Shown: piece after piece, positions 1,515 to 3,075 of the stretch
How positions within the stretch are numbered: the stretch's first letter is position 1
Layout: each line of letters begins with the position of its first letter
NCBI GenBank assembly: GCA_008933025.1
Contig: WBXI01000010.1
Location: 1-39,721 of the forward strand
Length of the DNA stretch: 39,721 bases
Reading direction: 5' to 3'
Source: Verrucomicrobiota bacterium
Lineage (GTDB): Bacteria > Verrucomicrobiota > Verrucomicrobiia > Limisphaerales > UBA9464
Notes under the pieces: generated by a model
What the model saw: the letters and a program-made list of their open reading frames with translations, nothing else
What the model was told of the DNA's origin: nothing
Databases searched by the model: none
Position numbers and translations under genes: made by a program

Positions 1515-2111
1515 ATGGTCGCTCGCAACAACGCCGACTCCGAACCGAAACTCGCCCCGCCGGGAGCCGGACTGCCCACGCCCGAACTCCAGATTGCCAG
1601 ACTTCTCTTCCGACTGCGGCGATGGGGCGGGAACCGGGACGCATTCACCGCCCGTTTCCAACGGGAACGCGGGTTGATCCGGGCATTGGTGCTCTCCTGC
1701 GACGCCGGGTCCGGTTCCCGCCGGGTCCTGATCGAACGTCCCCGGGGTCTCGAGGACAGCAGTCGCAACTGGTCGGTGTGGATGACACTCGATCACCTGC
1801 GGATCGTGAATGGCGAGATCACCCGCGTGGTGGATGCACTGTCGAAAGGCGTGGCGCCAAAAGGCGTGGCCAGTACCGCCGCCGTCAAACCCGGCCAAGG
1901 GATCACCGAGGCGGTGGTCGCGGCTTACGAGGACTCTTGCGACGCCTATCTGGCCGCGGTGGCCGCGGCACCCGACTTGGATTCCGCGCTGAAATTTCCG
2001 CATCCTTGGTTCGGCCCGTTGGACGCGGCCGGTTGGCACGCATTGTCCGGCGCCCACATGGGCATCCATCGGGAACAGATCCAACGCATCCTGACCGGCC
2101 TCCGCCAATAA
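1515..2111 (+). CDS. DinB-like / DUF1569-type protein
   Basis: 'WSVWMTLDHLRIVNGEI...HPWFGPLDAAGWHALSGAHMGIHREQIQRI' resembles the DinB-like four-helix metal-binding fold (His positions). Confidence 0.65.
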   Translation: MVARNNADSEPKLAPPGAGLPTPELQIARLLFRLRRWGGNRDAFTARFQRERGLIRALVLSCDAGSGSRRVLIERPRGLEDSSRNWSVWMTLDHLRIVNGEITRVVDALSKGVAPKGVASTAAVKPGQGITEAVVAAYEDSCDAYLAAVAAAPDLDSALKFPHPWFGPLDAAGWHALSGAHMGIHREQIQRILTGLRQ

Positions 2112-2133
2112 CCCGCGTCGACAGGGGCCAACG

Positions 2134-2255
2134 GGGTCGTATCTGTGCATTGGACAACGGCGATCCCGGCCCACGCGCCGGCGTCCATCCGTACGCATTG
2201 CCGGCGCATCGCGGCGTCCACCGGCGTCCGGATGTCCAATGTACAGGTACGACCC
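2134..2255. repeat. 122-bp element with 23-nt imperfect inverted repeats and a nested hairpin
   Basis: Left arm 2134-2156 GGGTCGTATCTGTGCATTGGACA; right arm 2233-2255 is the reverse complement with 21/23 identity. Inner IR GCGCCGGC (2175-2182) / GCCGGCGC (2200-2207). Lies between convergent genes. Confidence 0.85.
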
Positions 2256-2259
2256 GGAA

Positions 2260-3075
2260 CTACTTCATCCAACCCGGGAACTGCACCTTGGTCCTATACG
2301 CCTCGACATCCCATTCCCTGTGCCATTTGAGGCTCCAAAGGTTGCGGACCTGCGTGCCCCGGGCCGAGCCGTCGAAGAACAGGATCTGGTTGCGCCGGTC
2401 GTGGCGGCCAAAGGCGAAATGCTGCATCTCGTATGCCTCGAAGTTGCTCTCCTGGGAATAGTCGCCGGGCCTGTTCGAAGGGGCATAGGTGATGGGATCG
2501 CCATACCAAGGACCACCGCCACGCCACATGGAATCCAGTTGGAGGGGAATGTTGGAGGCATCGCCGGGAACATTGATGGAGCCCCAATGCCAGGCCTTGG
2601 TCCGGCCCTGGATGTCGGTCGGGGCGCTGTAGCCCCAGTTGTTCATGCCATAGCTGGCAACCTCGTTGGTCGCGTTGGAACCGGTCCCCATGACGTACGC
2701 GCCGTTGATGCCGCCGTGTTCCAGCAACGTCCGGCCATCGGGCCCCTTGCGGCGCTTGGTGGCTTCGGGACACAGCAGCAACTCGGCTTTCCGCCTCCAG
2801 TGCGCCTGCAGGGCGTTCAGCCATTCCCCGCGGGACCATCCGACCGACAAGCCCGTCGGCAACTGGTCCCGATGGTCGGAGGCATAGAGGTTCCAGATGA
2901 TGCCCCACTGGCGGATGTTCGAGAGACAGGCGGTGGCCCGCGCCTTGGATTTCGCCTTCGCGAGGGCCGGCAGCAGCATGCCGGCGAGGATCGCGATGAT
3001 GGCGATGACCACGAGGAGTTCGATCAGCGTGAACCCCGAATGCCGGGCGAATATAGATCGACGGAATGTTTTCAT
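2260..3075 (-). CDS. type II secretion/prepilin-like protein with H-X9-DG motif
   Basis: '[45 protein letters not shown]' and C-terminal '[12 protein letters not shown]' (H-X9-DG). Confidence 0.9.

Follow-up and report, generated by a model that had tools for sequence, protein, structure and literature searches.

The inverted repeat that lies between two convergent genes in the window, the whole 39,721-nt stretch of DNA analyzed here, is probably (about four chances in five) a non-autonomous miniature element mobilized by a TIRYT, a RAYT-like tyrosine transposase whose gene is flanked by terminal inverted repeats (RAYT group 1). The element is multicopy and paired, its sequence is homologous to that at the ends of sister-species TIRYT genes, and its variants differ from species to species. 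Enzymes of the TIRYT group (Y1/HUH) act on single-stranded DNA and leave no target duplication, and we infer that a transposase acted on these ends by such single-strand chemistry. In the mechanism that we propose, private DNA is enclosed by a TIRYT-type terminal repeat (GCAACGGGGTCGTATCTGTACATTGGACA) that is present twice in opposite orientations. A RAYT-like HUH/Y1 transposase of the TIRYT type (RAYT group 1, TnpA-Y1 subclass 2.1), whose own gene this repeat would normally bound, would have recognized the ends and copied arm pairs, or moved them, to intergenic locations in single-stranded form and with no target duplication. The proposed link between repeat and transposase rests on the homology of the ends with those of sister species, from which 6 of 29 positions differ. 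Since a single arm does not fold, any structure that is read would be that of the arm pair, or else the end would be read unfolded.

A paired repeat between convergent genes

The earlier note had read from the sequence two 23-nt arms (2134-2156 and 2233-2255) with two differences between them, in an element filling the gap between the stop of a DinB-like gene and that of a prepilin-like gene. Both arms are as described and both stop codons were located (2109-2111 and 2260-2262; Table 1). Because GCAAC stands outside the GGGG in other copies, the true element is slightly wider, from about 2128 (CCAAC) to about 2261. The inner 8-bp stem is present, as are GCGAT (2160-2164) and ATCGC (2208-2212), which had been taken to extend it; the minimum-energy structure of the + strand includes an inner hairpin but not this extension. 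The N-terminal coding region of the prepilin-like gene (window about 2870-3060) had very many matches across the genus, pointing to what may be a large paralogous family of prepilin-like genes.

Table 1. Parts of the element and its neighbors in the window, and repeats that flank TIRYT genes in related genomes.
Feature	Location	Strand	Description
Left terminal repeat (arm)	2128..2156	+	CCAAC + GGGGTCGTATCTGTGCATTGGACA; 1 difference from the GGGG..GACA family consensus
Interior	2157..2232		Not common to other copies; holds private 8-bp stem 2175-2182/2200-2207 and GCGAT/ATCGC
Right terminal repeat (arm), inverted	2233..2261	-	CGGGTCGTACCTGTACATTGGACA; the decayed outer GTTGC edge runs into the prepilin stop codon
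Flanking DinB_2-domain gene	1515..2111	+	Pfam DinB_2; stop 2109-2111, 16 bp ahead of the element
Flanking prepilin-like gene (N_methyl motif)	2260..3075	-	Convergent; stop codon 2260-2262 abuts the element
Flanking repeat at TIRYT gene	G006 and G007		GGCAATGGGGTCGCGTCTATAAATTTGACA
Flanking repeat at TIRYT gene	G002		CAATGGGGTCGCGTCTATATTGTTGACA
Flanking repeat at TIRYT gene	Family member G019		GGCAATGGGGTCAGATCTATCCATTTGACA

Dispersed pairs and solo arms in the host genome

The host assembly (G000) comprises 4.47 Mb and is 86% complete. A 143-bp query of the element gave 26 matches in this assembly, nearly all of them confined to the arms, and only weak GC-rich extensions of 78-80% identity were found beyond these. 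The arm pattern GGGTCGTATCTGTACATTGGACA, allowing up to three mismatches, had 29 matches on 16 contigs, whereas the reversed pattern, searched as a control at the same threshold, had 0. The fragmentation of the host assembly into 375 contigs might favor a chance inverted repeat or an assembly artifact; the contrast between the two patterns and the strength of the fold (z = -4.2, see below) refute that reading, to which we attach practically no weight.

The 29 arm matches are arranged mostly as inverted pairs, with the remainder as solo arms, and about 19 places in the assembly hold the element. Eleven pairs are clean and span 81-233 bp. A further pair, on contig C201, has its right arm split by another insertion, and the pair on C49 is decayed; one recognizable arm each is left on C18, C28, C62, C231 and C262, and in the truncated C215a. 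The earlier note had proposed a MITE- or REPIN-like repeat and had named a single copy lacking homologues as the finding that would speak against it; the dispersed, mostly paired matches in the host, together with homologous repeats in sister species, are the opposite of such a finding.

The consensus terminal repeat is GCAAC-GGGGTCGTATCTGTACATTGGACA, and each arm in the window is one position off the 23-nt consensus. The conserved unit, at about 29 nt, is longer than the 23-nt arm, as GCAAC lies outside the GGGG in most copies. By eye, an asymmetric interior is common to seven copies (C261a, C261b, C261c, C191, C77, C89 and the inversely oriented C215b). The window copy and those on C32, C110 and C227 have private interiors, and the nested hairpin of the window is therefore not a family feature. 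According to a simple ORF score, the flanking genes are convergent at the window, C261a, C89 and C262, and elsewhere the context is mixed or not callable. The C261a copy (L009 1951-2192) exactly fills the space from one stop codon to the other of a convergent gene pair, with a 0 bp gap on either side. An integron attC site was considered for C261, which has three copies at intervals of 1.4-1.7 kb, and rejected, as the intervening genes are by eye ordinary chromosomal ones and the arms lack an attC core.

The insertion in the C201 pair (L017 3476-3872) is about 290 bp long, has the ends GGTTCCTCGCT../..AGCGAGGAACC and is accompanied by an 8-bp duplication, TGTACAGA. An ISL3-type element on C296 (L166 1611-2953, DDE_Tnp_ISL3) has matching ends, and the insertion is thus apparently a miniature derivative of ISL3 lodged within the repeat.

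Search for insertion traces

The absence of an obvious target-site duplication, which the earlier note had reported for the window copy, extends to the family: across 11 copies, no offset or length showed a clear excess over permuted flanks. This result bears on the possibility that the element is a MITE of a DDE-type insertion sequence (e.g., ISL3, IS1595 or IS630-like) whose autonomous copy is missing. The long terminal inverted repeats are in keeping with such an origin, as is a subgroup of 176-233-bp copies that have a common asymmetric interior and resemble descendants of one longer element, and an ISL3-type element with an 8-bp target duplication does exist in the host genome. However, besides the lack of a duplication at any tested offset or length, solo arms occur often, the ISL3 ends (GGTTCCTCGCT) bear no relation to the arms, and the homologous ends in sister species belong to Y1 genes. 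Together, these points largely refute a DDE-type MITE, which we regard as improbable.

Empty sites were sought by comparing 15 joined flanks with the eight genomes of the same genus, and no match spanned a junction. At several loci, homology to the gene of a relative breaks off no more than about 50 bp from the element, and the repeat was not seen there. Such breaks are compatible with insertion, but they are not clean empty sites because the intergenic DNA has diverged. In the closest relative, G002, the locus is rearranged past window position 1467. There the DinB-like gene is rearranged after position 1969 of L055 (equivalent to window 1467), and 53 bp identical to window 1912-1964 follow directly. 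Beyond those 53 bp lies unrelated DNA that includes, by eye, a tyrosine-recombinase-like stretch, possibly an integron integrase.

The hairpin as a candidate RNA

A second alternative is that the element is a structured RNA, either a bidirectional 3'-UTR hairpin or a small RNA, retained for its fold and possibly exapted from a mobile element. The + strand fold is strong (z = -4.2, with 0 of 200 shuffles as good) and that of the - strand is weaker (z = -2.2). The position at convergent 3' ends at the window, C261a, C89 and C262, with C261a placed exactly between two stops, would also suit an RNA. The earlier note had further pointed out that both arm differences leave G-U pairs on the + strand. 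This is literally correct but conveys almost nothing: whenever inverted arms differ by a transition, one strand has G-U and the opposite strand A-C, and the chance that two such differences fall on the same strand is one half.

Over ten gap-free copies we counted 20 differences between the arms, of which 12 are unpaired on both strands, six are G-U and two are A-C on the chosen strand. As 12 of 20 break the pair on both strands, there is no sign of selection for pairing. In addition, the interior hairpin of the window is not common to other copies, no Rfam match was obtained at 2100-2270 even at E values up to 1, and the repeat is not found in the eight sister species at up to two mismatches. 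No terminator (a GC-rich stem followed by a T-tract) or promoter-like site was detected at the element, in agreement with the view of the earlier note that it is not a standard terminator. That note had left open a MITE/REPIN-like repeat or a structured 3'-UTR RNA; the former is borne out by the multicopy inverted pairs, the lack of duplication and the homologous repeats beside Y1 genes of sister species, and the latter, given the unpaired differences, the private interior and the Rfam result, we consider very unlikely. The 122-bp hairpin is a side effect of having inverted ends. Within the 3' UTRs of the two neighboring genes it may fold into a stem, but no constraint for this was seen.

Y1 transposase genes in the host genome

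Mobilization by a TIRYT transposase raises the matter of the gene itself. Two Pfam Y1_Tnp genes score above the cut-off in the host, and no transposase flanked by this exact repeat was found in the 86%-complete assembly. A transposase with matching ends was thus not seen for the exact repeat in this incomplete genome, and homologous repeats lie beside Y1 genes of sister species.

The host genome has a second family, in which an intact Y1 gene (C5:16348-17440, L047) is flanked by its own inverted repeat, GGGGTCAGTCCTCACTTTTGACA. This repeat has 24 matches in the assembly, many of them in inverted pairs of about 100-210 bp (e.g., C16:8386/8510, C32:27097/27282 and C49:1665/1848). The C5 family serves as a positive control within the host, since its Y1 gene and its dispersed pairs have common ends, again of the form GGGGTC...GACA. 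A solo copy of GGGGTCAGTCCTCACTTTTGACA adjoins the C89 element. A third Y1 type is represented by L048 (C25:465) and L168 (C273:3974-4435), which are 54% identical over 343 aa; upstream of L048 are GACAAAGGGACAG-like repeats (inverted CTGTCCCTTTGTC at 191/304).

A permissive search of the host with the G002 protein yielded only relics of that TIRYT clade. One, at C44:19618-19863, retains 85 aa of the C-terminus with an internal stop and is 66% identical to L088, and the C5 type gives no match to it. The other, at C296:2105-2218, comprises about 40 aa (best identity 66%, to L091) and adjoins the ISL3 element. The cognate gene may lie in the part of the genome that the assembly lacks, or it may have been lost, leaving the repeats alone.

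TIRYT genes and their flanking repeats in relatives

The exact arm had no match in 84,980 genomes, nor did its degenerate form, and it was absent from viral contigs. At up to two mismatches no match was found in 144 relatives, including the eight of the same genus, and at up to three mismatches a search of 388 genomes of the phylum returned five look-alikes in three other genomes (G310, G404 and G325), e.g., GGGCAACGGGGTCGTATCACGACATTGGACA. None of the Y1 genes of these three genomes is flanked by the host repeat. On these searches, the exact repeat would be private to one species, with sister species bearing their own variants.

One of the Y1 proteins of G404, L070 (353 aa), is encoded by a gene bounded by GGGGTCGTGTGTCTAGATTCTAGAATT-type repeats. 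L070-like TIRYT genes are present in seven of the eight same-genus genomes, and only a distant match exists in the host. In a maximum-likelihood tree, the same-genus proteins belong to a group (support 97/97) that also takes in further proteins from the family and a small number from the order. Y1_Tnp is above the cut-off in the proteins of the relatives; Bac_DnaA_C, a C-terminal helix-turn-helix of the sort (DnaA_C or other) that characterizes subclass 2.1, is below the cut-off in L070 (E 0.0096) and was not seen in three other relatives' proteins.

The repeats flanking the same-genus TIRYT genes (GCAATGGGGTCGCGTCTATAAATTTGACA) are homologous to the host arm, with 23 of 29 positions in common. 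At the TIRYT genes of G006, G007 and G002, the bounding repeats are of the CAATGGGGTCGCGTCTATA.. type, and the homology includes the outer CAAT/CAAC. By eye, the host 29-nt unit is 6/29 positions off the G006/G007 unit and likewise 6/29 off that of G019 (Table 1). Homologous repeats flank the Y1 gene in inverted orientation in G006, in G019 and in further relatives; in G002 and G007, such a repeat was found at one end at least. When 30 TIRYT loci were searched with the 23-nt arm at up to six mismatches, 14 matches were obtained, all within about 300 bp of the TIRYT gene, against a chance expectation of about 0.3 (binomial estimate).

A search of the genus with GGGGTCGCGTCTATANATTTGACA gave 42 matches in G007, 24 in G002, 23 in G008, and two each in G006 and G001; G003-G005 had 0, as did all controls, and two matches in the host are members of the host family. 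The two in G006 are both around its TIRYT gene. The dominant variant differs by genome (...TATATTGTTGACA in G002, ...TATAAATTTTACA in G007 and ...TAAANATTCGACA in G008). Next to its TIRYT gene, G002 has a copy (C378:1272) that is letter-identical to dispersed ones, and the corresponding copy in G007 is one letter off its dispersed ones; in both genomes, several matches are arranged in the manner of REPINs, as inverted pairs with a spacing of about 55-70 bp. The one TIRYT locus of G008 that was examined (L096, its best) ends in the GGGGTCAGTCCCG type and the dispersed repeats are of the GGGGTCGCGTCTAAA type (GGGGTCGCGTCTAAANATTCGACA); as these are unlike, a match of gene and repeat is not demonstrated in this genome. 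A second TIRYT or an orphan repeat family in G008 would be implied. G003 and G004 have a TIRYT without GGGGTCGCGTCTATANATTTGACA matches, and the pairing of gene and repeat is thus not universal.

Together, four members of one genus (G000, G002, G007 and G008) have tens of copies of the same end, in a form that differs between them, and in two of them (G002 and G007) the matching variant lies beside the transposase gene. The interest lies in this species-private turnover, with several species of the genus having their own versions of the repeat. The system allows transposase and repeat ends to be compared species by species, and a direct test is possible of whether TIRYTs, unlike classical RAYTs, recognize a hairpin-less end. 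It also bears on how such repeat families persist after decay of the transposase. We tentatively speculate, at less than even odds, that TIRYTs (RAYT group 1), which are reported to be without REP partners, maintain populations of hairpin-less REPIN-like pairs that are private to a species; that the arm pair or an unfolded end replaces the single-arm hairpin as the recognized feature; that both repeat and transposase undergo turnover from species to species within a genus; and that repeats can outlive the transposase, as in the host.

Comparison with known systems

The ends of IS200/IS605 elements are subterminal hairpins and not long inverted repeats. The element resembles this group in its association with a Y1 transposase domain (PF01797) and in lacking a target-site duplication; unlike in IS200/IS605, the NCBIfam IS200 model fits the C5 protein only, and below the cut-off.

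With REPINs and the REP-RAYT system (PMC3116915) the element has these features in common: two short inverted repeats, intergenic location, host-specific types tied to a Y1 gene, no target duplication, and short spacing, as in the 11 clean host pairs of 81-233 bp. A classical REPIN was nevertheless rejected. The host arm, GGGGTCGTATCTGTACATTGGACA with its outer GCAAC, has no GTAG foot; one arm folded by itself gives -1.6 kcal/mol, on a par with shuffles, and so lacks a hairpin, unlike GTAG REPs, each of which is a palindrome that folds on its own; and the transposase belongs to the TIRYT branch.

RAYT-like genes flanked by GGGGWSAS terminal repeats were named TIRYT/TIRtron by Di Nocera et al. 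2013 (PMC3733652), and some of these repeats are also dispersed as single and dimeric copies (PMC3733652). Most TIRYTs correspond to TnpA-Y1 subclass 2.1, or RAYT group 1, with no REP-like sequences found nearby (PMC6006769). The host family is similar in having GGGG-type terminal repeats dispersed as singles and dimers. The start of the host arm, GGGGTCGT, fits GGGGWSAS at six of eight positions, and many repeats of the relatives (GGGGTCAC, GGGGTCAG) fit it fully, the starts in sister species being GGGGTCGC, GGGGTCAG and GGGGTCAC. Unlike in the published TIRtrons, the cognate gene is not in the host assembly, the repeat is species-private and a subgroup has a longer common interior. The element fits the TIRYT/TIRtron kind as a new family; as two motif positions differ and the cognate gene was not seen, its strict membership is putative.
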